Below, piece after piece: positions 41,970 to 56,141 of a stretch of DNA of 64,000 nucleotides. The DNA is from a virus: positions 1 through 64,000 of IMG/VR virus record IMGVR_UViG_3300032309_000911. The stretch is one strand, 5' to 3'. The notes under the pieces were generated by a model. That model made no database searches. It was not told where the DNA came from and worked only from the letters and a program-made list of their open reading frames with translations. Position numbers and translations under genes: made by a program. Within the stretch, counting starts at the first letter, position 1. Each line of letters begins with the position of its first letter.

Positions 41970-43331
41970 ATGGCTTATACTATAATAAACACCACTGATA
42001 CACTAGAACAGATGCGAGTTAAGTTAAATAACTTGACTACTAATGATTTTGGTGATCCTTCAATTTTAGCTGGTGCAGGTATTACATCAACATCTATTAC
42101 AGGTGCTGTCGTAGAATTAGCTAATGTTGCATATTCTCAAGCTGGTTTTCGTATTGAAGATTCTACTTCTTCTTTTCAACAAATTGGTGCTGGTCAAACT
42201 TTAAGAGTTTTAGGAACATCAAATCAAATTAATGCTGTTGTAAGTGCTACAGATACTTTAACAATAAGTTTACCTAGTAACGTAACTATACCTAATAATT
42301 TAACAGCTAATGGTACATTGCACACATTGGGTACAATAGAAATTAGTGGAAATAATATTAGATCAACAGATTCTACAACTGTTAGAATTAATGATTCTTT
42401 AAATGTAAACGGTAGTATTTCAGCAACTTCTGTATCATCAACAGGCGCTGTTTCTGGTACAACTATAACAGGAACAGGTGCGGTTTCTGGTACAACTATT
42501 ACAGGTTCTTCAACAATACAAGGTACAGATTTAGTATTAACTTCAGGTGGAATAACTTTTGAAGGAGCAACCGATAACACATTTGAAACTACACTAGCGA
42601 TTACAGATCCAACGCAAGACAGAACAATTACAGTACCAAATATAACAGGTACTATTGTTACAACAGGAGATACAGGTACAGTTACTAGTACAATGATTGC
42701 TGATGGTACAATTGTAAATGCGGATATTGCTGATGGAACAATTAGAGGTGCCAAATTAAATGTATCTTCAGATAGTGTAACTTTTGCTAACGTAACTGCT
42801 ACTAATTTTACAGGAACAGCTTCAATAGCAACAACAGTTACTTTAAATGCGAATAATACGAATAATGAAACGGTTTATTTAACATTTTCAGATACCGCTA
42901 CAGGTAATCAAACTTTAGAAACGGATACAAGTTTATCTTATAATCCTTCAACAAATATATTATCTACAACAGCTACTCAAGCACAATATGCCGATTTAGC
43001 TGAGATTTATGATACAGATAAAAATTATGATATAGGTACAGTAGTTATGGTTGGCGGAAATAAAGAAGTTACAGAATGTTTTGTAGGTAAAAGAGCACTA
43101 GGTGTCATATCAGATAGACCTGCTTTTTTAATGAACTCTAAAGCAAAAGGTCAACCAGTTGCATTAAAAGGACGTGTTAAAGTAAAAGTTACAGGCGATG
43201 TTAAAAAAGGCGATGAATTAGTTGCAGGTAATGGTGGTTTTGCCACAACAATAAGTGAAGAATTTACAAAAGTATTTGCAATTGCTTTGGAAGATAATGA
43301 TAAAGGACTTATCGAGGCAATTATACTATAA
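41970..43331 (+). CDS. Tail fibre-like protein with C-terminal 'ADLAEIY' domain
   Basis: A 453-residue protein: N-terminal attachment module ('YTIINTTDTLEQMRVKLNNL'), Thr/Ser-rich beta-helix-like middle ('SGTTITGTGAVSGTTITGSS'), and a C-terminal domain starting 'QAQYADLAEIYDTDKNYDIG' with 'GKRALGVISDRPAFLMNSKA', a frequent C-terminal module of cyanophage fibre proteins. Likely structural. Ends just before the radical SAM locus. Confidence 0.8.
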   Translation: MAYTIINTTDTLEQMRVKLNNLTTNDFGDPSILAGAGITSTSITGAVVELANVAYSQAGFRIEDSTSSFQQIGAGQTLRVLGTSNQINAVVSATDTLTISLPSNVTIPNNLTANGTLHTLGTIEISGNNIRSTDSTTVRINDSLNVNGSISATSVSSTGAVSGTTITGTGAVSGTTITGSSTIQGTDLVLTSGGITFEGATDNTFETTLAITDPTQDRTITVPNITGTIVTTGDTGTVTSTMIADGTIVNADIADGTIRGAKLNVSSDSVTFANVTATNFTGTASIATTVTLNANNTNNETVYLTFSDTATGNQTLETDTSLSYNPSTNILSTTATQAQYADLAEIYDTDKNYDIGTVVMVGGNKEVTECFVGKRALGVISDRPAFLMNSKAKGQPVALKGRVKVKVTGDVKKGDELVAGNGGFATTISEEFTKVFAIALEDNDKGLIEAIIL

Positions 43332-43355: not shown

Positions 43356-43802
43356 ATGATTGATGCTTTAAATGATGAATTAATATCTTTCACAAGATAC
43401 GAAAATAATCAAATAATCTATATAGACAAAAACGGCAAAGATTACAAAGTTAAAGATGAAATAACTTATGGTAATTGGATTAAAAATTATAAAAATATTC
43501 CACATATAAAAGTTGAAGGATTAGAAGATAATAATTATCATCTTCAATTATTAAAACAATACAATTTGAATTTTAAAATGAAAAATGTGCACCTTTTTTA
43601 TAATCAGTTTGGCGGGTTTTCTTTTCCTGAACATTCAGATGATATAGATGTATTATTGTGTGTTATTAAAGGTGGTAAAAAAGTATATACGGATAATTAT
43701 CCTGTTTTGGTGAAAGAAGGACAAGCAATATCTATACCTAAAGGTGTCAAACATAGAGTTGAAAGTTTACCGTTTACTTGGGCATTAAGTATAGGATATT
43801 AA
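43356..43802 (+). CDS. Cupin/JmjC-like putative Fe(II) oxygenase
   Basis: A 148-residue protein. 'GGFSFPEHSDDIDVLLCVIK' provides H93-x-D95 and 'ISIPKGVKHRVESLPF' provides H133, the HxD...H metal triad of cupin-fold 2OG/Fe(II) enzymes, with the typical G-(Q)-A-I-x-I-P-x-G-V-x-H strand. It starts the modification locus and is followed 16 bases later by the first radical SAM gene. Substrate unknown; modification of a fibre residue is the contextual guess. Confidence 0.7.
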   Translation: MIDALNDELISFTRYENNQIIYIDKNGKDYKVKDEITYGNWIKNYKNIPHIKVEGLEDNNYHLQLLKQYNLNFKMKNVHLFYNQFGGFSFPEHSDDIDVLLCVIKGGKKVYTDNYPVLVKEGQAISIPKGVKHRVESLPFTWALSIGY

Positions 43803-43818
43803 GTATAGGATATAAAGA

Positions 43819-44856
43819 ATGAATTGGATGTTTTATATAAAGACAACTGAAACTTGTCAATTAAATTGCAAACATTGTTTCACTAGTGGTATTAATGGTA
43901 AAAAAATTTATTTTGATTATTTTAAAACAATAGATTTTATAAAAAGATTCAGACAATATTTTGATAGTAACGAAGATTCTATTCATTTTGAATTTCATGG
44001 GGGTGAACCTTTTTTAGCACCAGTATCTCACATGCAAAAAGTATATGATGAATGTAAAGATTTATGGAAAAATAGTACTTTTGGTATTACAACAAATTTA
44101 GTATTTAAATTAAAAGAAGAACACTATGAATTTATTAAGGGGCCTTTAAATAATCGTTTAGGTACAAGTTGGGATCCTAAAATAAGATTTGAAAATGATG
44201 CACAATATAATCTGTGGGAAAAAAACGTAAAAGATTTATTAAATAAAGGCGTTACAATAAAATTGTTTATCAGCGTAACTAAAGATACTATTAATATAGA
44301 ACCTATTAAACTATTAAAATGGATAAAACAATTAGGAGTACAAGAAATTTCTTTTGAAAGACTAACAGGTAATGGAAATGCAAAATTGCATCCTGAAATA
44401 TTCCCTGATAACATAGAACAGGATAAATGGTTTTTAAAAATGCACCATCAATCAAAAGAAAATAATTGTAGAAGTTGGTTTGATAATGAAACATTAGAAG
44501 TTATATACAGTAAGTTTGAAACAGGTTTTTTAAAAGGTGGTACTTTCTGTAGAGATTGTGAACAAAAGATTTTTACATTAAATGCTGATGGTACAATATC
44601 AGGTTGTCCAAATGCGGCGCCAGAGTTTCAATTTGGACACATAAATGACGATATTAAAAGTCTTATAAATAGTCCCAAAAGAATAGAAAACATCGCTTGT
44701 GAACGTGCAAGAAATCCTTTATGTTTTTCTTGTGAGGTTTTTGAGTTTTGTGGAGGTGATTGCCACCAACTTGCTTGGCAAGGTGATATATGTGGTGCAC
44801 CAAAAAGTTTAATGAAAGAGTTAAAATTAGGTATAAAATATGGTAACATTAACTAA
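43819..44856 (+). CDS. Radical SAM/SPASM protein 1, adjacent to the Cys-tail protein
   Basis: A 345-residue protein. 'TTETCQLNCKHCFTSG' holds the CxxxCxxC [4Fe-4S] site (C13, C17, C20) and 'FHGGEPFLAP' the GGE SAM-binding motif. The C-terminal SPASM part has 'GTFCRDCEQ', 'GTISGCPNAAP', 'NPLCFSCEVFEFCGGDC' and a last C before 'GAPK', enough to bind auxiliary Fe-S clusters. SPASM enzymes typically modify peptides (e.g. sactipeptide or sulfatase maturases). Its last 17 bases overlap the start of the CHxS-tailed protein, so enzyme and probable substrate are translationally coupled. Confidence 0.9.
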   Translation: MNWMFYIKTTETCQLNCKHCFTSGINGKKIYFDYFKTIDFIKRFRQYFDSNEDSIHFEFHGGEPFLAPVSHMQKVYDECKDLWKNSTFGITTNLVFKLKEEHYEFIKGPLNNRLGTSWDPKIRFENDAQYNLWEKNVKDLLNKGVTIKLFISVTKDTINIEPIKLLKWIKQLGVQEISFERLTGNGNAKLHPEIFPDNIEQDKWFLKMHHQSKENNCRSWFDNETLEVIYSKFETGFLKGGTFCRDCEQKIFTLNADGTISGCPNAAPEFQFGHINDDIKSLINSPKRIENIACERARNPLCFSCEVFEFCGGDCHQLAWQGDICGAPKSLMKELKLGIKYGNIN

Positions 44857-45412
44857 TCCAGTTACGCCGCAAAATATAGTAGATAGATTTAAAGATTTGG
44901 TTACAGATGTAGCTAATACAAGTATAATTTGGGGAACAGATAATAAACCATTTTCAGAAATGCCAGATGCTAATTACGCTGGTACAATATCAGGAACTAC
45001 TATTAATGTTACTGGTTCTAATATTGCTATTACAGGAGATTTAATAACAGCTTCTACAATTAAATCTGTATTAGAAACAGAAACAGCTCTATATACAAAT
45101 ATTAGACAACAAAGAGCTATACTAAATGTAACAGGTGGTGGAGGAAATACAGGATCGAGACCGACTCCAGGAATAATTTATGATCAAACAAATGTAGCTA
45201 ATTTATCTGTAGATAATAGAGCATCGTTAGGATCCATTTCTAGTTCAAATGTAGATGCGGGACAAATAATAGACGATTTAAATTTAGAGACATATTTTGG
45301 AAATTTAGCAACGGCTTATGATGCTGTTAGAACTACGGCCGTAACACAACAAATAGATGTATGTCATGCTAGTTGTCATAGTTCATGTCATGGATCAAGA
45401 GGAAGAAGATAA
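44840..45412 (+). CDS. Fibre-like protein with C-terminal (CHxS)3-RGRR tail, probable modification substrate
   Basis: A 190-residue protein. The N-terminal part ('NPVTPQNIVDRFKDLVTDVA', 'NTSIIWGTDNKPF') resembles marine phage fibre/tail proteins; the middle is beta-rich with a Gly linker. The last 16 residues are CHAS-CHSS-CHGS-RGRR: the only cysteines (C175, C179, C183) and the only histidines of the protein lie in this tail. Such a concentrated C-terminal core behind a long leader-like part, coupled to a radical SAM/SPASM gene, resembles RiPP precursors; the H-x-S spacing recalls His-Xaa-Ser (Hxs) systems. Metal binding or disulfides are alternatives. Confidence 0.75.
   Translation: MVTLTNPVTPQNIVDRFKDLVTDVANTSIIWGTDNKPFSEMPDANYAGTISGTTINVTGSNIAITGDLITASTIKSVLETETALYTNIRQQRAILNVTGGGGNTGSRPTPGIIYDQTNVANLSVDNRASLGSISSSNVDAGQIIDDLNLETYFGNLATAYDAVRTTAVTQQIDVCHASCHSSCHGSRGRR
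45362..45397 (+). repeat. Three 12-base coding repeats for Cys-His-x-Ser
   Basis: TGTCAT followed by two variable codons, three times in a row (TGT CAT GCT AGT, TGT CAT AGT TCA, TGT CAT GGA TCA). The Ser codon varies while the protein pattern is kept, suggesting selection on the peptide. Confidence 0.85.
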
Positions 45413-46104
45413 TGAATATAATTGAAACAATAGTTCCAATATCGATAGATAATTTAAAAAAACATTTTACGGACAAAGAAACATTTTATTTAATTGATTA
45501 TAAAAATAGTGAATTGAAAGGTAAAAAATTATTAACATATTTAAGTAATTTAGACTTACCTTCCGATATCAAAGAGCCTGATTTGGAATTAATAAAAGAA
45601 TATTTGCATAGCATTACTTTAGTTAATATTAATTCATTAGAAAACATTGTTATAGATATTCTTTTAGAATATAAAGGCATTTCTAAAACCAATAAGTATG
45701 AAACATTTATTAAAGAAAATAAAGATATAATTTCTTTATGGTCTGATAAGTTAGACAGTTTAAGTGTATTCAACATGTATATTGTAAATTCTGATGAATT
45801 TAAACAATATGCCAATTCTTTTATAAAAGATGATACTGCAAGTTTAGAAGGTGTTAATTTTGTAAGTTTATTAAAACAAGAAAGATTTTATCTATTCTAC
45901 AATAAACTAAATAGTAATATCAAATTCTATACTCATTATTTTAATGATTATATGTTTAGAGGTAAAAATCTTTATGAATTTTGGGCTACGTCCAAAAATC
46001 CTATGTTTTTATTAACTTGGGGAATAACACAAGGAAAAGGTAAAGATTATATAGAAGCTAAAATTAAAGATAAGGAAATTATAAAAAATGTTGCATTTAT
46101 TTAA
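45412..46104 (+). CDS. Unknown protein of the modification locus, 230 residues
   Basis: Start at 45412 (MNIIETIVPISIDNLKKHFT), sharing the A of the previous stop (TAATG). A soluble helical protein without Cys, signal or membrane segments; contains 'YMFRGKNLYEFWATSKNPMF' near the C-terminus. No family recognised. Because it is locked between the substrate-like gene and another unknown gene, it may be a peptide-recognition or chaperone-like partner (inference). Confidence 0.68.
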   Translation: MNIIETIVPISIDNLKKHFTDKETFYLIDYKNSELKGKKLLTYLSNLDLPSDIKEPDLELIKEYLHSITLVNINSLENIVIDILLEYKGISKTNKYETFIKENKDIISLWSDKLDSLSVFNMYIVNSDEFKQYANSFIKDDTASLEGVNFVSLLKQERFYLFYNKLNSNIKFYTHYFNDYMFRGKNLYEFWATSKNPMFLLTWGITQGKGKDYIEAKIKDKEIIKNVAFI

Positions 46105-47173
46105 TAAAACATATTTAGAATTTGATGATAAAATAGAATTAAATTTTGATCGAGTAATTATTTCAGATGTAAATGGTGTAAATATATTGGATTCTTTAGA
46201 TAAAGTTGTTCAAGGAAAATTATTAAAATATGGTAAAAATTTAGACAATTTTAATTTTGTTAATTTAATAACTGAAATAAATTCTTATGGACAATCATCT
46301 AACAAAAAATTAGTAATATATTGCGATAAGTTAAATTATATTAAATTCGCAACTAAATGGTTAAAAACAATATTGCCAAATTTAGATTTAAATAATTTTT
46401 CAAAATTAATAGAATTAACAATTTATAAAGAAAGAATAATTAGTAATTCTCAAATGCAATCAGTAATACCTGTAAAACAAGATATTTTATGGGAAGGATT
46501 AGGAGATATATCATCTTCATTTAATTCAATAACAGTTTCTAATGAAGATAGACAATCTATAAAAAATTTAAATTTAAAATATTCTTATGAATTTCTTTTA
46601 GCTGATCATTTTAGCGGGTCATCTAATTATACATCTTCACTTACAACAATAGTGCATTTATTTTTGCAAAGATGGTTTAAAGAGTTATTTAAAGATAATA
46701 GAGAAATGGTATTGTTAAATCTTTTAAATAAAAATTTTCAAACAGCATTAAGTTTTACAGAAAGTAATATTGATTTAACTAAATCAAATCCTATAACTGG
46801 AGTTTCTTCTTTACAATTTTATTCTGATGAAAATATTTGGTCTAAAGAAAACTCATGTAAAGTTGAAGGATTAACACAAATACAAATAGATGGTTTACGA
46901 AATTTAGTTAAAAAAATTTACGGTGATGTGGAAGGCATGGAAATAGACAACGCTGTGTTTGGTATGCTTGATTATTTAGAATATGCAGCCAAAACTTCTA
47001 TCACTACAGAAGAATTAAATACTATATTAAATTATGTTGTAACAAATCCATTTGATACTTGTTTAATACCAAAATTTGATTTTCAAAATGTAAACTTTGT
47101 TTTTGTACAACACCTTTTAAATTTAAAGAGAGATAATAACACAGAGGTACTTACAAAGTTTAGATTATTATAG
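46088..47173 (+). CDS. Unknown protein of the modification locus, 361 residues
   Basis: Overlaps the previous gene by 17 bases; AAGGAAAT lies about 10 bases upstream of the ATG. A soluble helical protein ('NLNLKYSYEFLLADHFSGSS', 'YGDVEGMEIDNAVFGMLDYL') with few cysteines (C104, C272, C337 region) and no recognisable motif. I cannot assign a fold. It precedes radical SAM protein 2 by seven bases. Confidence 0.68.
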   Translation: MLHLFNKTYLEFDDKIELNFDRVIISDVNGVNILDSLDKVVQGKLLKYGKNLDNFNFVNLITEINSYGQSSNKKLVIYCDKLNYIKFATKWLKTILPNLDLNNFSKLIELTIYKERIISNSQMQSVIPVKQDILWEGLGDISSSFNSITVSNEDRQSIKNLNLKYSYEFLLADHFSGSSNYTSSLTTIVHLFLQRWFKELFKDNREMVLLNLLNKNFQTALSFTESNIDLTKSNPITGVSSLQFYSDENIWSKENSCKVEGLTQIQIDGLRNLVKKIYGDVEGMEIDNAVFGMLDYLEYAAKTSITTEELNTILNYVVTNPFDTCLIPKFDFQNVNFVFVQHLLNLKRDNNTEVLTKFRLL

Positions 47174-47180
47174 GATTGCA

Positions 47181-48227
47181 ATGCGTGAATTTTTGATTGA
47201 TCCTAAAAGAGATCCTGAACAGGAATATACAATTCATTTATTTGAATTTTGTAATTTAAGTTGTGCTTTCTGTTGGCAAAATCATCAAGATAAAATAGGC
47301 ATAGACACGGTTCTTGATAAATTAGAACCTATTGAAAGATTTGTTAGTAAAGAATATAAAAATAAGATTACTCTTAATTTGATGGGTGGCGAAGTATTTG
47401 CGCCTAGTATTTATACTAAACAATTAAATGAAGCCTATAAACAATTATCTTTAGGCATTCAAAAAATTGCAGACAAATATAACAAACAATGTTCTTTAAA
47501 TTGGGTGTCAAATTTAGTTACTGATAAGTTAGATTTGATTGAAGATTTATTACAATACTCCAAAGACAATCATATTAAAGCACGTTTAACAACATCATAC
47601 GATCCTCGTGGCCGTTTTAATCCAAAACAATTCGAAGTGTTTAAAAAAAATGTAGATTATTTTAAAGATAGAGTAACGTGTTTTTCTTGTTTATTAACTA
47701 AACCAAATATAGAATATTATTTAACTGAGGGTGATGAATATTTTGATTATCTTTATAACAATGGTAAATATATTTACTTTGATTATTATATGCCTGATGA
47801 ACACGCTAAATTTAATATGCCAAGTGATGAATTACTTTTAAAATTCTTTAAACATTGTGTTGACAAATATCCTAATGTGCATCCTGTAAAAGATTGGATT
47901 TTTAATAAAAAAAATTACGCTTCATGTAGAGTTAGTAAATTGGTATTAGCTGATGGAACTTTATGTATGTGTGGCAACTTGGTACAAGACAAAAAATCAT
48001 TAAGTATGTACAAATCGCCTATTAAACGTATGAACAATAATGAAATTGAAAACAAATTTTTAGAAAAATATAATTGTGCTTCTTGTGAGTTTTTGGATAG
48101 GTGTACATTAGGATGTTTTATGAATCACGATTACAAATATAAGGAGGAGCTGAATGAGTGTGTCTATAAACTTACGCACAGATATATCGAAGATGTACGA
48201 GTACAACGAGGATACATCGCTTATTAA
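47181..48227 (+). CDS. Radical SAM/SPASM-type protein 2
   Basis: A 348-residue protein. 'LFEFCNLSCAFCWQNH' gives C24, C28, C31; 'NLMGGEVFAP' is the GGE motif. The C-terminus has 'YASCRVSK', 'GTLCMCGNL', 'NCASCEFLDRCTLGCFMNHD' and a later Cys, fitting SPASM/twitch auxiliary clusters. Overlaps the following gene by 74 bases, an unusually long overlap, with the next gene's strong Shine-Dalgarno inside the coding sequence. Likely acts on a peptide or protein substrate. Confidence 0.88.
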   Translation: MREFLIDPKRDPEQEYTIHLFEFCNLSCAFCWQNHQDKIGIDTVLDKLEPIERFVSKEYKNKITLNLMGGEVFAPSIYTKQLNEAYKQLSLGIQKIADKYNKQCSLNWVSNLVTDKLDLIEDLLQYSKDNHIKARLTTSYDPRGRFNPKQFEVFKKNVDYFKDRVTCFSCLLTKPNIEYYLTEGDEYFDYLYNNGKYIYFDYYMPDEHAKFNMPSDELLLKFFKHCVDKYPNVHPVKDWIFNKKNYASCRVSKLVLADGTLCMCGNLVQDKKSLSMYKSPIKRMNNNEIENKFLEKYNCASCEFLDRCTLGCFMNHDYKYKEELNECVYKLTHRYIEDVRVQRGYIAY

Positions 48228-48726
48228 TATCAAATTACCTAAAAATATTGATGTTAAATTGGATAATCTTCCTGTAAAACAACCATATATTCCTAGAATA
48301 TGTGGTAGACAAGCTCACATGTTTATTTGGTGGGGAACTAAAGAAACCGACCCGGACATTTATGAACAAACTTTAAAAAATAAAAATGAAGAACAATGGA
48401 TAACTTGTGATGAAATTTGGAAATTAGAAAAAGGTATTTCCTCAATTCATATATATGACACTGAAATTATTGTAGGATGTGTTAAATATTCTGGTGTTTT
48501 GAAAAAAAAAACTATACATGAAAGAAAAAAATTTATTAGACAAATGTGGAATGATATAGTAAGTATGTTTAAAGATAAAAAAATTATTGTTCCTGTAGGT
48601 TCATATTTAGAATATATAAGTTTGTCAATAAATTTAACAAAAATACAACACGAACCTTATCAAAAAAGATTTTTAAATCCATTAGGTTTTAAAAAACAAG
48701 GAAATTATTGGATAAGATGGACCTAA
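48154..48726 (+). CDS. Unknown protein, weakly acetyltransferase-like
   Basis: A 190-residue protein whose start is set by AAGGAGG at 48141-48147 inside the radical SAM 2 gene. 'HMFIWWGTKETDPDIYEQTL' and the C-terminal 'KKIIVPVGSYLEYISLSI' with 'LNPLGFKKQGNYWIRW' recall GNAT-like phage proteins, but a clear acetyl-CoA loop (Q/RxxGxG/A) is missing. Tight overlap with both neighbours indicates a joint function with the radical SAM enzymes. Confidence 0.6.
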   Translation: MSVSINLRTDISKMYEYNEDTSLINIKLPKNIDVKLDNLPVKQPYIPRICGRQAHMFIWWGTKETDPDIYEQTLKNKNEEQWITCDEIWKLEKGISSIHIYDTEIIVGCVKYSGVLKKKTIHERKKFIRQMWNDIVSMFKDKKIIVPVGSYLEYISLSINLTKIQHEPYQKRFLNPLGFKKQGNYWIRWT

Positions 48727-49808
48727 TAATTAAACCAACAGAATTGTGTAATTTTAAATGTACTTTTTGTTCTAGCACTAAAATAGCGGAACACAAAAAA
48801 GATGTATTATCGCTTGAACAAATATTTACATTTTTAAAAAGATTTCCTCAAACAAGAACAATTATAGTTAATGGAGGCGATCCTTTAATGATGGAACCAG
48901 AATACTATTGGAAAATTATTGAATGGTTGGATAAAAACGATTACGATACATCTATTGCATTAACTACAAATTTATGGCCATTCTATAAAAAACCAGACAA
49001 ATGGGTTAATTTATTTAACAATGAAAGAGTTGGTGTAACTACATCTTTTCAATATGGAGGTGGCCGTCTTAAAGGAGATTTAACAGAATTTACAGAAGAA
49101 GATTTTTGGAAATGTTCAAATGCTATGTTAGAATATTGTGGTTATAGGCCAGATTTTATATCTGTTATTGTTCCTGAAAACGAAAAAGATGCAATTAAAA
49201 ATGTAGAACTTGCAAAACGTATGAGTGAAGATATTGTACCTGATGGAACAATGCACAATTTTACACGTCATAGTAAGACTGGTGTGGAATGTAAATTAAA
49301 TTATGCAATGTCTAGTGGCGATCAAGGTAAACCTTATTTGTTAAGTAAGATATATCAGATATACGTAGAAATATGGAAACGTGGTCTTGCACCTTGGGAA
49401 TTTAATACAAAACAAATGATACAAAGATTAAACAATGATAGAACATCTTGTCCTCAAAATCGCAAATGCGATACTGGAATACGTGCATTAAATCCTAGCG
49501 GAGATTATTATTCTTGTGGTGCTTTTGGTGATGATAAAGACAAAACCATAGATTTTGATAGAGAAATGAAAGGAGAGTTTTTTACTCCTTTACAAGATGA
49601 TTTAAATTTGCTTAGTATGAAGAAATCTTGTTTTACTTGTCCTATGTTTAATATATGTAATGGTTGCAGAAAAACAATTAAGGATTTTAAACATCACGGA
49701 GTTGTAGAAGAACATTGCAAACTTATGAAAACCATAGCACCGGACATAATTAAATCTAATGGACTAAATATTGAAGTAACACCTTATATAGATGAAAGTG
49801 TATTATGA
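48717..49808 (+). CDS. Radical SAM/SPASM protein 3
   Basis: Start at 48717 (MDLIIKPTELCNFKCTFC), in preference to a TTG at 48708. C11, C15, C18 form the CxxxCxxC site; 'IVNGGDPLMM' is the GGE-equivalent. The C-terminus shows 'SCPQNRKCDTG', 'YYSCGAFGD', 'SCFTCPMFNICNGCRK' and a last Cys in 'EEHCKLM', a SPASM-like set. Overlaps the gene before by 10 and the 2OG gene after by 4 bases. Confidence 0.88.
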   Translation: MDLIIKPTELCNFKCTFCSSTKIAEHKKDVLSLEQIFTFLKRFPQTRTIIVNGGDPLMMEPEYYWKIIEWLDKNDYDTSIALTTNLWPFYKKPDKWVNLFNNERVGVTTSFQYGGGRLKGDLTEFTEEDFWKCSNAMLEYCGYRPDFISVIVPENEKDAIKNVELAKRMSEDIVPDGTMHNFTRHSKTGVECKLNYAMSSGDQGKPYLLSKIYQIYVEIWKRGLAPWEFNTKQMIQRLNNDRTSCPQNRKCDTGIRALNPSGDYYSCGAFGDDKDKTIDFDREMKGEFFTPLQDDLNLLSMKKSCFTCPMFNICNGCRKTIKDFKHHGVVEEHCKLMKTIAPDIIKSNGLNIEVTPYIDESVL

Positions 49809-50326
49809 TTAATGATTTTTTAACAAAAGGTTTTATTATATTAAATGATAAAGATCCTTTTAAATTTATAGATATCAATGATATACAATGGACTGATGCC
49901 GGTCATGTAGGTTTGCAAGTAGTTATTAAAGAAGAAAAAATACAAAATGAACTATTAACAACTCAAAAATATCTAGGTGAGAAATACGTAAAACAAATAG
50001 ATTCGAATTACAAACTTGCTAATAAAATAGATTTAGTAAATGGCATGGATGAGGCTACTTTGGTTTGGCATAACGATTTAATAGAAGGACCAAATCTTTG
50101 CATTTTAACTTATTTTGATGATATGGATGTTGATATTGGAGGTGCTATTTGTTTTAGAAAAACAGAAACAAAAGAAGATTTAATAAAACATTACCCTAAA
50201 AAAAATGATATTCTTATTATGAATCAAAGTTTAAAATATGAACATATAGTTACACCTCTGAAATTAAAACTTCCTAGACGAGTGGCCAGTTTTAATTATT
50301 ATATAGATGAAAGGTTGACAAAATGA
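49805..50326 (+). CDS. 2OG-Fe(II) oxygenase-like protein
   Basis: A 173-residue protein. 'ATLVWHNDLIEGPNLCILTY' supplies H89-x-D91 and 'LKYEHIVTPLKLKLPRRVAS' supplies H147 and the 2-oxoglutarate-binding R158/R159, matching the prolyl-4-hydroxylase-like layout. 'IGGAICFRKT' is the usual strand between them. A hydroxylase in a radical SAM cluster suggests multi-step tailoring of one substrate. ATGA overlaps at both ends. Confidence 0.8.
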   Translation: MINDFLTKGFIILNDKDPFKFIDINDIQWTDAGHVGLQVVIKEEKIQNELLTTQKYLGEKYVKQIDSNYKLANKIDLVNGMDEATLVWHNDLIEGPNLCILTYFDDMDVDIGGAICFRKTETKEDLIKHYPKKNDILIMNQSLKYEHIVTPLKLKLPRRVASFNYYIDERLTK

Positions 50327-50901
50327 AAGAAGGATTTAATAATTTGTGGCCTACTATCATATTAAAAGATATTATAAAAGATAAACCATTATTAGATGAT
50401 GTAACAAATTATACATTAACAAAATATGGGTTAGATAATAAGATATCAGCAGATATTAAATATCAAAATCTATTTGATGATAATTATTATAACAAGTTTA
50501 GATACAACATAGTAATACCTTTTTTTGAAAAATATTTGCAAGAAAATGTAGGTATTAGTTTGAAAGATAAAAAATATACTATGAGAGCATGGTTAACGGG
50601 TTATGGTGTTTCTTATTCTATGCCAAAACACAATCATTCAGGTTCTCATTTGAGTGCGGTATTTTATTTACTATCCGAAGATAATCATCTAGGAGGATCT
50701 TTAGTAATAAATGACCCTCGTTTTAATGCAAATAGAGGTTATACGCCTGATTTTAAAAAATGGTTTGAAAAAGAAATGTTTAATCCAAAAACAGGAGATA
50801 TTTTAATATTTCCAAGTTTTACTTATCATAGTGTTGACACTTATTATGGAAAATTAAGATTAGCTATGCCTGTTGATCTAATATTATATAATGATGAATA
50901 A
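50323..50901 (+). CDS. 2OG-Fe(II) oxygenase, family-5 type
   Basis: A 192-residue protein with 'RAWLTGYGVSYSMPKHNHSG' followed by 'SHLSAVFYLLS', 'GGSLVINDPRF', and 'TGDILIFPSFTYHSVDTY' with 'KLRLAMPVDL'. This order (H103/H105, H169, R179) matches the putative 2OG-FeII_Oxy_5 family (PF13759 type), widespread in marine phages. Substrate unknown. It overlaps the fourth radical SAM gene by 11 bases. Confidence 0.85.
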   Translation: MKEGFNNLWPTIILKDIIKDKPLLDDVTNYTLTKYGLDNKISADIKYQNLFDDNYYNKFRYNIVIPFFEKYLQENVGISLKDKKYTMRAWLTGYGVSYSMPKHNHSGSHLSAVFYLLSEDNHLGGSLVINDPRFNANRGYTPDFKKWFEKEMFNPKTGDILIFPSFTYHSVDTYYGKLRLAMPVDLILYNDE

Positions 50902-51820
50902 TATAACAGTATCTATAAATCCAAGTTATTTTTGTAATTTTAGATGTAATTTTTGTTATCTCGCAACTGAACAATTAGGTGATCAAAAAAAAATATCATT
51001 ATCAATACTAGATAAAAGATTAAAAGAAATTAGTAAAGTTAGAAATATAGAATGGGTTGATCTATATGGTGGAGAAATAGGCGCATTAAAAAAGGATTAT
51101 TTTTATGGATTAAAAGATGTAGTAAGAAAATATTACAAAGATAAAATTAATATAATAACCAATTATTCTATGTTACACGAAGGATTTTTTAAAGACGATT
51201 TTTATTTAAGTGTAAGTTATGATTTCGAAGCAAGAGAAAAATCCGATTTAGTTTATAATAATATGTTTCAGAGTACGGTGCCTATTGCAGTATTAATACT
51301 TGCAAGTCAAAAGGTAATAGAAATGAACGTAGATGATATGATAAACAAATTAAATCTTTGTTCTAGTATAGAAAGCGTGGAAATTAAACCATATTCAATA
51401 AATCAAGCAAATGAACAATATGTTACACATAAAGATTTTGAATTGTTTGTGCAAAAATGGATTGAAAGTCCTGTAATAAAAAAATTTGATTTTATAAATG
51501 AAGGAAAAATAATTCAAAGTTTAAATAAAGAATACAACGCATTTTCAAACAATCATGTTTATATAACTCCTAATGGAAATTTTGCTGTATTAGAATTTGA
51601 TAAAAATGATAAAGAGTATTTTTTAGAATTAAGTTCTATTAAAGAATATATAAAATGGGCAGAACAAGAACCAATAAAAAATATTTCAGATATATGTAGA
51701 AAATGTAAATATTACGGTCATTGTTTAACTGAACATTATCGTTATGTAAAAGATTTAAATAACAGTTGTAATGGATATAAAGGATTATTAGAATATTATG
51801 GAAAAAGAATGGAAAATTAG
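50891..51820 (+). CDS. Radical SAM protein 4 with reduced auxiliary-cluster region
   Basis: A 309-residue protein (a second ATG at 50894 is equally possible). 'NPSYFCNFRCNFCYLATE' is the CxxxCxxC site and 'DLYGGEIGAL' the GGE motif. The C-terminus has only 'ICRKCKYYGHCLTEH' and 'NSCNGYKG', fewer Cys than a full SPASM domain. Shortest of the four; could use one auxiliary cluster. Overlaps the next gene by 23 bases. Confidence 0.87.
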   Translation: MMNNITVSINPSYFCNFRCNFCYLATEQLGDQKKISLSILDKRLKEISKVRNIEWVDLYGGEIGALKKDYFYGLKDVVRKYYKDKINIITNYSMLHEGFFKDDFYLSVSYDFEAREKSDLVYNNMFQSTVPIAVLILASQKVIEMNVDDMINKLNLCSSIESVEIKPYSINQANEQYVTHKDFELFVQKWIESPVIKKFDFINEGKIIQSLNKEYNAFSNNHVYITPNGNFAVLEFDKNDKEYFLELSSIKEYIKWAEQEPIKNISDICRKCKYYGHCLTEHYRYVKDLNNSCNGYKGLLEYYGKRMEN

Positions 51821-52193
51821 ACAAGCATTATATCACAAATTAAATAGTGATTATACTGACGATCTAAAAAAGATAAAAATAGAAATAAGTAGCGATATTG
51901 TTGAAAATTGTATAAGATATTTTTATAATACCGATATGCCTTTTATATACCCGTCAAAAAGTTATGTGGTGGCCATTTGTTATGCCTATTGGTTATCAAA
52001 AGACTTTGGTGAAGATTTTTATGAATTGTTAAACGATAAAGATTTGTTATATGGAAACGACCCATATTTTAAAACATATGAAGAAGATACTAAAACGTAT
52101 GATGAAATATTAAAAAAGGTTATGCCTCTTGATGAAAATAAAGGTATAGTGCCAGACATAAAGAATTATTATATGGCTGAATTTTTTATATAA
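51798..52193 (+). CDS. Conserved marine-phage hypothetical at the end of the locus
   Basis: A 131-residue protein with 'YPSKSYVVAICYAYWLSKDF' and 'LLNDKDLLYGNDPYFKTYEE', a text I recall from several T4-like marine phages, always of unknown function. Starts within the radical SAM 4 gene (23-base overlap), so it is part of the same operon and may be a regular partner of it. Confidence 0.72.
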   Translation: MEKEWKIRQALYHKLNSDYTDDLKKIKIEISSDIVENCIRYFYNTDMPFIYPSKSYVVAICYAYWLSKDFGEDFYELLNDKDLLYGNDPYFKTYEEDTKTYDEILKKVMPLDENKGIVPDIKNYYMAEFFI

Positions 52194-52441: not shown

Positions 52442-52789
52442 ATGGCAGGTATAGCAAACTTATCAATAGACGCCGGCGCTACATTTACAAGTGATGTATT
52501 AGTACAGAATGATGATGGTACTGCTTTTAATTTAACAGGTTATACAGCTCAAGGTAAAATGTCTCAAGGATATTCTGCCACATATCAAAGAGTATATTTT
52601 GATATTACTATCTATCAAGCTGATGGAATAGTAACAATAGGTTTAGATCCTGCAACAACTGCTCAGTTAGAGGATGGCCGTTGGGTTTATGATGTAGAAA
52701 TAACTAATGTAGCCGATAGTACAGTAACACGTGTTGTTGAAGGTATTATTACAGTTTATCCAGGTGTAGTTTCTACTTACAATCCTTAA
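52442..52789 (+). CDS. Small beta-rich structural protein
   Basis: A 115-residue protein: 'NLSIDAGATFTSDVLVQNDD' and 'GTAFNLTGYTAQGKM', 'EDGRWVYDVEITNVADSTVT' and 'RVVEGIITVYPG'. This Ig-like/BppU-N-like beta pattern is common in marine phage virion proteins. It likely decorates fibre or baseplate. Convergent with the glycosyltransferase gene, with a 4-base overlap of 3' ends and no visible terminator. Confidence 0.72.
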   Translation: MAGIANLSIDAGATFTSDVLVQNDDGTAFNLTGYTAQGKMSQGYSATYQRVYFDITIYQADGIVTIGLDPATTAQLEDGRWVYDVEITNVADSTVTRVVEGIITVYPGVVSTYNP

Positions 52790-54117
52790 TCGAAAAATTT
52801 ATTTGTAGGTATTTTTATTTCTACATTGTTTTTAGAAAAATGATAATCTCCATCTGGGCCATTATCACAAAAAGGTCCTGAAATTAATCTAAAACCTAAA
52901 TCTTCAACATACTTAATTACTTCATCTCTTAAAGGTGCGCCTTTGTTATATTCTACTATTTGTAATTCTAATATTAAATCTTTACAATGTTTTAAAGCTT
53001 CTTTAGATCCTTTTAAAACATCCAATTCAGCACCTTGTACATCTATTTTTATTAAGTCCGGCATAGGCAGATTTCTTGAACTTATAATACTATCTAAAGT
53101 TTTAGTTTTATATAATTTTTTATTACTTTCATTATACAATCTATTAGATTCAGAACTGATTTGTTCGTTTTCTTTATAATAACTATTTCCACCAGGATGA
53201 TAAGTGTTTTTATAAAAATTAACTTCTTTATCTGTTCTATCACTTAGTACACCTATATGGTATTGTAAATTGTTTTCTTTGTATAAAAATTCACATTCTG
53301 ACATTGCTTCAAAAACAACATACTCAGCATTTGGCCATATTGTTTTAGCTTCACTTGTCCAATGTAGTACACAAGCACCTATATCGTAAATTACTTTTGG
53401 TGATATGTTTAAACTTTTCAAATAATCTACGTGTATTTGAGGTAACAATCTTTTAGTTGATAAATCTTTTAATCTATCAGTTATATTAATTTCTTTTTTA
53501 TTTACAGTTGGAGTATTAGGTGTACTTTCCACTTTAAAAATCGTATTACCTATATGTTCACAATGTACTGTTGTATCAGCAAATATTTCAAAACCTTTTG
53601 CTTTAACTTTTCTACAAAAATCAACATCTTCTGATATTGTATTTTTATGATCTATTGCTGAATGATAAACAAAATGAGGATAAGGTATCGATCTAAAAAC
53701 TTCTCCTTTAATTAATACACAACCCATTCCACAAGCTGCTAATTCAACTAATGGAGTATCCTTTATTTTTTCAAATGGTATATTTGAACAACCACCTCTA
53801 TCATTGTGTTCATAAACTTCTAATATATGTTCGTTTTCTTTTCTTTGTATGTAAAGACCTGATATCATGTCTTTATTATGACTTAAAAGTTTTTTAAGTG
53901 TATCTGTTGAAAAAGAAATATCACTATCTACTGAAAACAAATAATCATAATGAGTTGCCCAATGTGCTATTAAATTTCTTATTTGATCTATTTGATAACC
54001 AAAGAAAAATTGTAATTCTGTAGTATAACCATCGGGAATTTCAAGGTCATAAATGGCCTTCATTGTTTTTGTTTCAACGTATTTGTTTGTTGGTATAGCT
54101 ATTAATATTTTTTTCAT
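52786..54117 (-). CDS. Fusion of GT-A glycosyltransferase-like and FkbM methyltransferase domains
   Basis: A 443-residue protein. Residues ~1-200: GT-A-like with 'YLFSVDSDISFSTDTL' (D-x-D metal motif), 'AACGMGCVLIKGEVF' and 'EDVDFCRKVKAKGFEI'. Residues ~235-430: FkbM-type SAM methyltransferase with 'VIYDIGACVLHWTSEA' and 'LIKIDVQGAELDVLKGSKEA'. The two parts probably add and O-methylate a sugar. Overlaps the upstream glycosyltransferase gene by 4 bases, forming a two-gene minus-strand operon beside the fibre genes. Confidence 0.85.
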   Translation of the reverse strand: MKKILIAIPTNKYVETKTMKAIYDLEIPDGYTTELQFFFGYQIDQIRNLIAHWATHYDYLFSVDSDISFSTDTLKKLLSHNKDMISGLYIQRKENEHILEVYEHNDRGGCSNIPFEKIKDTPLVELAACGMGCVLIKGEVFRSIPYPHFVYHSAIDHKNTISEDVDFCRKVKAKGFEIFADTTVHCEHIGNTIFKVESTPNTPTVNKKEINITDRLKDLSTKRLLPQIHVDYLKSLNISPKVIYDIGACVLHWTSEAKTIWPNAEYVVFEAMSECEFLYKENNLQYHIGVLSDRTDKEVNFYKNTYHPGGNSYYKENEQISSESNRLYNESNKKLYKTKTLDSIISSRNLPMPDLIKIDVQGAELDVLKGSKEALKHCKDLILELQIVEYNKGAPLRDEVIKYVEDLGFRLISGPFCDNGPDGDYHFSKNNVEIKIPTNKFFD

Positions 54118-56141
54118 TGATTTAATATCCTGTTTGCGTTTTTAGTTTGTTCTTCAGAGTTTACTTTATAATCATTTAAAGCGTGTGTGTCATTATAGTT
54201 ATAAACAATGTCTTGTACTACTTTAATACTTTCAGGTTGACATTTTTCTATTAGAGAATAGAAAATAGAACCATCGCCTCCTGCTTTATACCATTTTCCA
54301 TTTTCATCTTTAAACATACTTTCATCAATATTTTCTAAAAGATATGCTTTAAATGTTCTTAAATGAGTATAAGGCATGTTCCAATTAAATTTGTATTGTC
54401 TATATTTCTTTTCTTTTTTAATTTGTTCTGGATAAGGTTGAGACACTAAAGGTATATTATCTACCATTGACCAACATGAACCATAACTAAACTCAGTTGT
54501 ACCATCATAAATATTATTATAAAAATGAAATATTTGATTATCGTTTACTAAAGAATCATCACCATCTAAAAACATTACAATATCATCACGTTCACAAAAT
54601 TTGTTTATTGATTCTATTTGATTTCTTACAGCGCCTTTATTTTCTTTATTTCTTATTACTTTAATCTTATCACTTTCATATTTTTTAGCCAACTCATAAG
54701 TATTATCTGTAGAACAATCATCAATAACAACCATTAAATAATTATCATAATCTTGTGTAATAACCGATTCAATACATCTTTCAATATATTTAGAAGCATT
54801 ATAAGTAGGTGAAATTATAACAATCTTTTGTTCTTTATTTCTAGGTAAATAATTTTCTTCATAATTATTAAATCTTCTACCAAATACTTTTTTAACCCTA
54901 GAATTAATATGACTTACTTCTTTATATTCTTCTTTTGAAAGATATGCGCCTAATTTTTTATAGATGTGTTGTTTCCATTGTAATGCAATTGAATCCCAAC
55001 CAACAATACCTTTTATGATATTACAAGAATACATTTTTTGTTGATGTAAGTATCTATTAGCATTGGCCTGTAAAACCATATTTACAAATTTATTTTCTTG
55101 TTCTTTTTTATCAATAAACTTAAAAAGACTATTTGGTTCTATTGCATAATCCATTAAATAGCATGCCTGTTCAACTGCTGTTTCTTCTAAAGCTCCAAAA
55201 CGAGTTGTAATTAAAGGAGTGTTATATGCTAAAGATTCTAAAGTTGAAATACCAAATGTTTCAGGAAAGGCACCAGGAAATAACATAAAGCTGGCTTTTG
55301 CCATTAATTCTGCTATTTCTGATTGTTTAATTATTCCTGTAAATTCGATATCTAACTTTTTATATTTTTCATCAGCAACTAATTGTCTCCATTTTTTTTC
55401 TTGTTCATCTGGTTCAGCATTTTCTCTAAATCTATAATATCCACCAATTACTTTTAATTTGGCTTCAGGTATTTGTTGTTTGATTCTTTCCCACATATTT
55501 TCAACTAGAGGCAACATACCTTTTGTAACAGAGGCATTATAAACATATAAATGAGGATCTTTTTGTCTTATGTCTATTTCATCTTTGTAAAGTACGATAC
55601 CATTACGTGTCATAAACATATGAGATTTAAGTACTTCAAAATTTCTTCTTTTACCATGATCACACGTAGTTACATAAGAAGTATGAAAATCTGAAAGGGT
55701 AAATATTTCATCCATATCTTTATGAACAATCATATCTTCTAATAAATGATCGCCTTTAGCAAAAGTATCGTGCATCCACATTGCTTTAAATTTAGCATTT
55801 TGTTTTATTTTAGAATATCTTTGAGGTTTAAAATTTTCAAATTGATTATATAAGTGTGGTGGTAAAAACGGTATTACTGTTCTCGAAGATATAACTACAT
55901 CAAAACTAAAATCATTTTTATAATCTAATATAGTGTGATCTATATATTGAACATTATCAAATATTCCTTCTTTTGATTCTTTATCTATACAATTATTAAA
56001 TACGGTTACTTTAAAATTTTTTTTAGCTAATTCTTTTGCAAGTAAAATTACGGCTGATTCTGATCCTCCTAAACCTCTTTTGTTTAAGGTATCGCCGTCA
56101 TAAGTCAATCCAATAATGTCAATAATAGCTATAGAAATCAT
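54114..56141 (-). CDS. Two-domain glycosyltransferase (GT4-like plus GT2)
   Basis: A 675-residue protein. N-terminal ~400 residues: GT-B fold with 'GGSESAVILLAKELAKKNFK', 'YNASVTKGMLPLVENMWERI' and 'MLFPGAFPETFGISTLESLA', the GT4 donor-site E-x7-E type. C-terminal ~225 residues: GT2 with 'VIISPTYNASKYIERCIESV', 'VVIDDCSTDNTYELAKKYES' and 'IVMFLDGDDSLV' (D-x-D). It could add two sugars in succession. The likely acceptors are the neighbouring fibre proteins or a host surface glycan. Confidence 0.87.
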   Translation of the reverse strand: MISIAIIDIIGLTYDGDTLNKRGLGGSESAVILLAKELAKKNFKVTVFNNCIDKESKEGIFDNVQYIDHTILDYKNDFSFDVVISSRTVIPFLPPHLYNQFENFKPQRYSKIKQNAKFKAMWMHDTFAKGDHLLEDMIVHKDMDEIFTLSDFHTSYVTTCDHGKRRNFEVLKSHMFMTRNGIVLYKDEIDIRQKDPHLYVYNASVTKGMLPLVENMWERIKQQIPEAKLKVIGGYYRFRENAEPDEQEKKWRQLVADEKYKKLDIEFTGIIKQSEIAELMAKASFMLFPGAFPETFGISTLESLAYNTPLITTRFGALEETAVEQACYLMDYAIEPNSLFKFIDKKEQENKFVNMVLQANANRYLHQQKMYSCNIIKGIVGWDSIALQWKQHIYKKLGAYLSKEEYKEVSHINSRVKKVFGRRFNNYEENYLPRNKEQKIVIISPTYNASKYIERCIESVITQDYDNYLMVVIDDCSTDNTYELAKKYESDKIKVIRNKENKGAVRNQIESINKFCERDDIVMFLDGDDSLVNDNQIFHFYNNIYDGTTEFSYGSCWSMVDNIPLVSQPYPEQIKKEKKYRQYKFNWNMPYTHLRTFKAYLLENIDESMFKDENGKWYKAGGDGSIFYSLIEKCQPESIKVVQDIVYNYNDTHALNDYKVNSEEQTKNANRILNQ

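Follow-up and report, generated by a model that had tools for sequence, protein, structure and literature searches.

A radical SAM and oxygenase gene cassette of phages that looks set to modify a near-invariant Cys/His-rich protein tail

The maturases of ribosomally synthesized and post-translationally modified peptides (RiPPs) such as PapB (ranthipeptide), darobactin, dynobactin and the cyclophanes combine a radical S-adenosylmethionine (SAM) core with a SPASM domain and are encoded beside a ribosomal substrate whose short target motif is C-terminal. Here we describe a locus of this general build in the first 64 kb of an 86.5-kb virus record (IMGVR_UViG_3300032309_000911); this 64,000-nucleotide stretch, hereafter the window, holds at 43356-52193 a cassette of twelve tightly packed open reading frames (ORFs) on a single strand, in which the radical SAM/SPASM protein rSAM1 is encoded next to a 190-residue protein ending in a (CHxS)3-RGRR tail. 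It differs from known RiPP loci in that the putative substrate is a folded protein encoded near baseplate genes, in that several radical SAM proteins and oxygenases accompany one substrate, in that rSAM1 lies far below the equivalog cutoff of PapB, its top model (55.4 against 340 bits), and in that no Pfam peptidase or exporter domain reaches its cutoff in the twelve proteins, four of which lack a known domain and could hide one. Sulfatase maturases, which modify a Cys or Ser of a protein that then keeps the modification, are a second point of reference, but no sulfatase gene is present in the cassette and rSAM1 reaches only 46.5 of the 349.45 bits required by the anaerobic sulfatase maturase model, its second best.

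The Hxs system pairs a substrate bearing a His-Xaa-Ser (HxS) motif with two radical SAM maturases (Haft and Basu, as cited in PMC9062424). The putative substrate of the cassette has an HxS motif too, and the analogy, drawn by an earlier interpretation of this DNA made without database searches (the sequence-only reading), holds to that extent; membership in the system does not, and we rejected it because the HxsB and HxsC models are far under their cutoffs (44.2 of 370 and 32.5 of 267.9 bits). In the cassette the repeat is instead CHxS, stands at the C terminus and mostly has three copies; the tailed protein has no NCBIfam match at E ≤ 1. Phage-type S74 fibres are also found in predatory bacteria, as the mosaic adhesive trimer (MAT) fibres of Bdellovibrio bacteriovorus (PMC10769870); S74-domain genes adjoin the cassette in all three Bdellovibrionota genomes tested, whereas the main text of that report contains neither 'radical SAM' nor 'cysteine'. 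Finally, genome papers of the jumbo phages FLC6, S13, DT01 and RP12/RP31 list radical SAM, cupin and 2-oxoglutarate (2OG) genes but do not, in the portions of these papers available to us, connect them with a tailed protein. The sequence-only reading had supposed the system to be undescribed, and no matching description was found in the open-access literature, a corpus that leaves bioRxiv and most subscription papers outside. As it does not pass the tests that define the nearest known kinds of system, we regard the cassette as a candidate for a new one, whose architecture would work like RiPP maturation.

The linkage between rSAM1 and the tail is close. A profile search of viral contigs with rSAM1 gave 360 relatives; the best 80 were kept, and of these we set aside 11 loci whose downstream DNA, and one whose upstream DNA, was too short. 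All 69 loci with at least 1.5 kb downstream have, within 2.5 kb of rSAM1, an ORF ending CHxxCHxxCHxxRxRR, and these ORFs encode 60 distinct tail proteins, all from the body family of the window protein. What defines a RiPP cluster, a ribosomal substrate with a conserved core beside a dedicated modifying enzyme, is thus found in 69 of 69 loci, with the action of the enzyme taken as probable. The sequence-only reading had proposed a search for the CHxS tail beside radical SAM genes in other phages and had counted homologous loci lacking a Cys-tailed partner against itself; besides these 69 adjacent pairs, no tail-less locus with enough DNA appeared in the three sets of loci described here. The recurrence of the tail is not chance, since it stands in the same place in 69 of 69 loci and its pattern occurs once in the 86.5-kb record.

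The remainder of the cassette recurs with it. rSAM1, the tail, the partner protein pA and rSAM2 are present in all 59 loci with at least 7.5 kb downstream, which also have the cupin (57), the partner pB (55), rSAM3 (55), rSAM4 (37) and at least one 2OG oxygenase (58); for the rSAM4 count, long matches were reassigned by length, the profile of the last cassette gene, 51798, having drifted into rSAM4. A cupin lies upstream of rSAM1 in 78 of 79 loci, locus L107 being without one. This pattern suggests a common modification by a near-invariant core of rSAM1, pA, rSAM2 and mostly rSAM3, pB and the cupin, and lineage-specific finishing by the variable oxygenases. Accessory genes were also compared with tail letters in a Fisher scan; it gave a single P value of 0.005 (gene 48154 and Asn) in 24 tests with phylogeny uncontrolled, and was not used.

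Other queries extend this picture. At the limits used, tblastn with rSAM1 and with pA retrieved the same seven phage records (six jumbo phages, one of them twice), in which the matches to rSAM1 are 40-52% identical. At the five jumbo-phage loci that we read, FLC6, SURPRISE13 and DT01 among them, the gene after rSAM1 ends CHxSCHxSCHx[SA]R[SG]RR on bodies of three sequence families; the whole tailed protein found no match by tblastn against annotated phages because its body diverges. With rSAM1 of phage DT01 as query, 42 of 45 loci had enough DNA, and these showed the strict tail in 39 cases and variants in three, namely CHTSCHSNCNCNRGRR and two four-repeat arrays without RGRR. Of 13 loci read that failed a regular expression requiring S, T or A at repeat position four, 11 show the tail with Asn there and two end at the contig edge. 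A third set, queried from a locus with tandem tails, comprised 80 loci, of which 43 were examined; 21 of the 43 have a tail, within 9.5 kb in seven and elsewhere in the record in 14 of the other 36, where the opposite strand carries it about 10-12 kb downstream of rSAM1; in one record an additional copy is found at 28 kb. Among those records with at least 15 kb downstream, the tail is present in nine of nine. In many of the tandem-type loci L274-L353, about 10-12 kb separate the tail pair from an rSAM1 gene on the opposite strand, and short contigs of this group therefore falsely look tail-less.

In the converse direction, a DNA pattern for the tail matched at least 120 stretches of viral contigs. 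Among the matches listed, 119 of 120 have an ORF ending in the tail, and a profile detects a radical SAM ORF in 83 of the 102 tail loci whose flanks are long enough. In the same list, 23 of the 120 stretches carry two tail genes (for example L114, L137, L145, L146, L165, L195 and L197), and in 21 of these 23 both proteins are 124-140 amino acids long, with bodies unrelated by sequence to the window protein; such genes often adjoin proteins with a GCxxxCxGC motif.

The tail behaves as a conserved unit on diverse bodies. Among the matches listed, 183 distinct tail proteins form 111 clusters at 70% body identity and, by blastp linkage, 11 body families, two of which hold 169 of the 183 and five of which are singletons (one a fragment). 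The Cys, the His and three Arg of the tail are fixed among the 111 clusters, which is partly forced by the search pattern; the Ser of the three CHxS repeats, conserved in 98, 83 and 98 of the 111, and the Gly of RGRR, in 100, are not forced by it. Likewise, the only invariant columns in a 398-column alignment of 59 proteins are the nine C/H/R columns of the tail, as forced by the pattern used to choose the rows. The 69 distinct proteins of the codon analysis were reached without the tail DNA pattern: their tail Cys, His, Ser and Arg codons vary synonymously while the bodies diverge, and selection acts on the tail at the protein level. Of the 69 bodies, 57 contain no Cys, and Cys makes up 0.15% of body residues, compared with 0.7-1.3% for five other families of the cassette. 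In the window protein, Cys is confined to positions 175, 179 and 183 and, by direct reading, His to 176, 180 and 184, just as the sequence-only reading had it. Repeat number can vary, as in L144:8105-8878, which has four CHxN repeats and ends in RSRR.

An AlphaFold model of the tailed protein has a mean predicted local distance difference test (pLDDT) score of 89.4, falling to 54 over the last ten residues, and thus predicts a folded body with a low-confidence tail. The body model matches models of viral proteins, among them a 296-residue protein of phage Atu_ph07 (17% identity, query template modelling (TM) score 0.58) that by its length is gp170, the tailed protein of that phage; to judge by this match, the same fold seems to occur in some bodies with dissimilar sequences. 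Three longer phage proteins in BFVD (A0A8S5USJ7, A0A8S5USJ8 and A0A8S5USV2, from Myoviridae sp. ctijX18) also match the body fold, with a query TM score of 0.52.

Two related records lacking RGRR, fragments of 36.6 and 98.9 kb, have no detectable rSAM2 homologue and a 2OG oxygenase in the place of the cupin, whereas three controls with RxRR have rSAM2. There is only a hint, from one clade and fragment records, that rSAM2 or the cupin may act on or read RGRR.

The label 'virion-type', given to the 190-residue protein by the sequence-only reading, is not visible from its sequence, which has no Pfam match at cutoff, but comparative evidence favours it indirectly. T4-type baseplate and fibre genes precede the cassette in the window. 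At L379:7053-8000, a body is followed by four CHx repeats and directly afterwards by Peptidase_S74 (E 1.5e-11), a domain that Pfam does not find in the window protein. Peptidase_S74 is an autoprocessing trimeriser of phage fibres, and the L379 array would sit near the new C terminus if this chaperone cleaves itself off. By eye, a long fibre-like or collagen-repeat gene precedes the tail at the tandem-tail loci L114, L165, L184, L188 and L231; the neighbours in L165 and in L215, which has a single tail of the tandem-tail body type, contain a collagen domain, and those in L188 and L114 have no Pfam match. In Atu_ph07, most virion proteins detected by electrospray tandem mass spectrometry lie in clusters 'CDS 31-76, CDS 170-215, and CDS 284-329' (PMC6102473). 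The tailed protein is gp170 by locus tag, a numbering that, counting accessions, agrees with the portal gp198 of the same source, and the limit of the second cluster coincides with its gene.

A similar context is seen outside phages. The tail pattern matched 19 stretches of bacterial or archaeal contigs, 16 of them with a tail ORF; the other three (Frankia, Pseudoalteromonas and Bordetella) are probably chance matches, and some of the 16 (Rhodobacteraceae, Rickettsiales and Euryarchaeota bins) may be phage contigs. Within the phylum of the Halobacteriovoraceae genome, the pattern is present in 10 of 368 genomes, one of which has a simple repeat, leaving nine; in four of five genomes the flanks of the cassette look, by eye, like ordinary chromosomal genes. 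Two of the three S74 neighbours mentioned above carry a pilin N-terminal methylation motif above cutoff, and no viral relative was found with a Bacteriovoracaceae rSAM1 as query. In one Bdellovibrionota cassette, a radical SAM protein (L255:8571-10307) has a B12-binding match that stays below cutoff, possibly a methyltransferase step. Taken together, the baseplate neighbours, the gp170 cluster limit, the S74 fusion in L379 and the S74 neighbours in Bdellovibrionota point indirectly to an association of the tailed protein with fibres or tails. Since Bdellovibrio uses S74 fibres at prey contact (PMC10769870), these S74 neighbours lead us to reason that the tail may function in contact with a target cell.

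We consider it probable that this is a RiPP-like cassette that modifies the CHxS tail of a small virion protein at the tail or fibre tip, and the interpretation of the sequence-only reading as a whole is supported. The folded body would do a job in the virion and serve as a handle, with the flexible C-terminal (CHxS)3-RGRR extension as the substrate. rSAM1 with the universal pA, and usually pB, followed by rSAM2, rSAM3 and often rSAM4, would modify the repeat, probably through Cys- and His-centred cross-links or couplings, while the cupin and the 2OG oxygenases would hydroxylate or oxidise tail residues with an accessory set that varies between phages. The finished tail would remain on the protein, displayed at the fibre, where it would probably contact the envelope of the target cell. 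We see about an even chance for the broader proposal that tailed phages from several lineages have in common with some predatory Bdellovibrionota a machinery for building a multi-residue modified fibre-tip 'warhead' or cofactor, with which to engage or breach that envelope.

Several points weigh against this explanation. Modification of the tail is something we infer from gene sequences. The locus counts are not independent events: the tail proteins of the 69 loci form a single body family, and several contigs differ very little from others. In the third set, 22 of 43 loci have no visible tail, all with at most 10.9 kb downstream of rSAM1. Among the matches listed in the converse search, 15 of the 19 tail loci without a profile-detected radical SAM gene have an ORF with the GCxxxCxGC motif only, which is weaker evidence (one such protein tested had no Pfam match at E ≤ 0.01), and four of the 102 have no radical SAM gene in the available flank. 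RGRR is not universal, two related records having an array without it. The body has no PDB match in fold searches, and its fold is therefore no proof of a role in fibres; the presence of gp170 in virions is at most implied by the cluster limits given for Atu_ph07.

Among other explanations, the one that survives best, although we think it unlikely, is a free RiPP-type product, in which the body would be a large leader and the CHxS tail would be cut off and released as a metallophore, toxin or anti-competitor agent. Such a large-leader body would be proteusin-like, and the folded body with its low-confidence tail, the likeness of rSAM1 to RiPP maturases above all others and an Arg-rich end that could be trimmed would suit it; what it lacks is a peptidase or exporter domain at cutoff, given the same reservation about the four proteins of no known domain, and it sits poorly with the S74 chaperone fused after the array in L379 and with an Atu_ph07 virion cluster that begins at the tail gene. 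Less probable still is that the tail, with its three CH pairs, is an unmodified metal-binding or disulfide tip and that the cassette has another substrate. Cys and His are classical Zn/Fe ligands and metal-tipped phage spikes are known, but rSAM1 and the tail occur together in 69 of 69 loci, tail and cassette are common to different body families, and the Ser and terminal Arg, needless for a Cys/His site, are also strongly conserved. We regard as very improbable that the radical SAM and oxygenase genes serve auxiliary metabolism or DNA repair and stand beside structural genes by chance: the DT01 paper connects the six radical SAM genes of its phage with DNA repair and with host metabolism (PMC8541153), yet the synteny with the tail gene recurs in jumbo phages, other viral contigs and Bdellovibrionota, and rSAM1 has the type of SPASM domain found in maturases of peptides and proteins. 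A c-type haem site has a negligible chance of being correct: CHxSCH can be read as CxxxCH, which literally matches a haem-binding motif spacing, but Pfam finds no cytochrome c maturation domain among the twelve proteins, haem attachment is extracytoplasmic, and the radical SAM genes would be left unexplained.

The cassette itself (Table 1) runs in the order cupin, rSAM1, tailed protein, pA, pB, rSAM2, 48154, rSAM3, two 2OG-Fe(II) oxygenase-like proteins, rSAM4 and 51798. The tightly overlapping genes of the sequence-only reading were recovered at or beside their expected positions, as twelve ORFs instead of eleven, with four uncharacterized proteins (45385, 46088, 48154 and 51798) instead of three unknown soluble partners; the stated 17-base overlap of 43819 with 44840 was confirmed exactly. 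Gene 45385 is listed with an overlap of 28 bases, but its start codon may have been placed too far upstream; among its relatives, the consensus starts at an internal Met. The four radical SAM proteins of the cassette all have CxxxCxxC and a listed Pfam Radical_SAM match (E 1.3e-4 to 7.7e-9), with only rSAM3 (48708) above the curated cutoff. For the SPASM model TIGR04085 (cutoff 27 bits), rSAM1 scores 34.5, rSAM3 24.7 and rSAM2 20.1, and rSAM4 is absent from the list. The four top models for rSAM1, the PapB, sulfatase, TIGR04083 and HxsB maturases, all remain under cutoff, no curated RiPP-maturase model is reached at cutoff by rSAM1-4, and the solved sequences nearest to the rSAM1 profile include 5wgg, which we take to be CteB, and an anaerobic sulfatase maturase. 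The three oxygenase-like proteins were also correctly picked out, with HxD in 43356 and 49805 and HxH in 50323. Of the two 2OG-Fe(II) candidates, 50323 combines its motif with a Pfam score above cutoff and 49805 is under it; 49805 also has a Peptidase_S39 match below cutoff (15.6 of 21 bits). No match in PHROG or Pfam was found for pB, and the pA model (pLDDT 87.8) has no PDB match at E ≤ 0.001 in fold searches, the best Z score being 3.6; neither this result nor that for the body of the tailed protein marks its fold as new.

Table 1. Features of the cassette and its upstream neighbour, in window coordinates
Feature	Position	Strand	Evidence
Fibre-type protein just upstream of the cassette, borderline autoproteolytic chaperone domain	41970..43331	+	Peptidase_G2 24.5 bits against cutoff 25; tail-fibre PHROG E 3.7e-9
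Cupin-fold putative Fe oxygenase, HxD...H, first cassette gene	43356..43802	+	Cupin_2 E 6.5e-6, just under cutoff
rSAM1, radical SAM/SPASM, peptide-maturase-like	43819..44856	+	CxxxCxxC; TIGR04085 above cutoff
Tailed putative substrate protein: body 1-174, CHxS tail 175-190	44840..45412	+	Alignment, AlphaFold model
C-terminal tail CHASCHSSCHGSRGRR, proposed modification site	45362..45409	+	Nine invariant C/H/R columns
pA, universal partner, phrog_20767	45385..46104	+	59/59 full loci
pB, partner	46088..47173	+	55/59 full loci
rSAM2, radical SAM with SPASM-like Cys	47181..48227	+	59/59 full loci
Accessory protein 48154	48154..48726	+	28/59 full loci
rSAM3, radical SAM; ATG at 48717 a possible alternative start	48708..49808	+	Pfam Radical_SAM above cutoff; 55/59 full loci
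2OG-Fe(II) oxygenase-like, HxD...H	49805..50326	+	2OG-FeII_Oxy_3 E 7.5e-5, below cutoff
2OG-Fe(II) oxygenase, HxH...H	50323..50901	+	2OG-FeII_Oxy_5 E 5.9e-11, above cutoff
rSAM4, radical SAM, short cysteine-bearing C-terminal part	50891..51820	+	Radical_SAM E 1.1e-6, 0.1 bit below cutoff
Small protein, phrog_20737, last cassette gene	51798..52193	+	phrog_20737 E 6e-44

Downstream, on the minus strand of the window (52786-56141), a glycosyltransferase-type protein (54114-56141) and a 443-residue protein possibly form a separate surface-sugar module. Two Burkholderia phage cassettes contain a pair of adjacent genes annotated as dihydrofolate reductase (L004:18406-19583 and L006:18319-19532; DHFR_1 E 1.3e-46 in the one tested).

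The broader proposal, if correct, would make these virion parts a class whose finishing is enzymatic and uses RiPP-type chemistry. If the proposed explanation is true, phages would finish a part of their particle by multi-step radical and oxygenase chemistry that has so far been described for peptide natural products and cofactors. It would account for the clusters of radical SAM genes that earlier work recorded in jumbo phages, offer a target motif of strict conservation on which new enzymes could be tested, and link the adsorption of phages with the fibres that predatory bacteria use at prey contact. The 360 relatives of rSAM1, together with cultured phages that bear the cassette, make existing virions directly testable by mass spectrometry. 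Many phages, and a small number of predatory bacteria, seem in this way to modify a short, near-invariant tail rich in Cys and His, apparently a new route to the completion of a virus particle.

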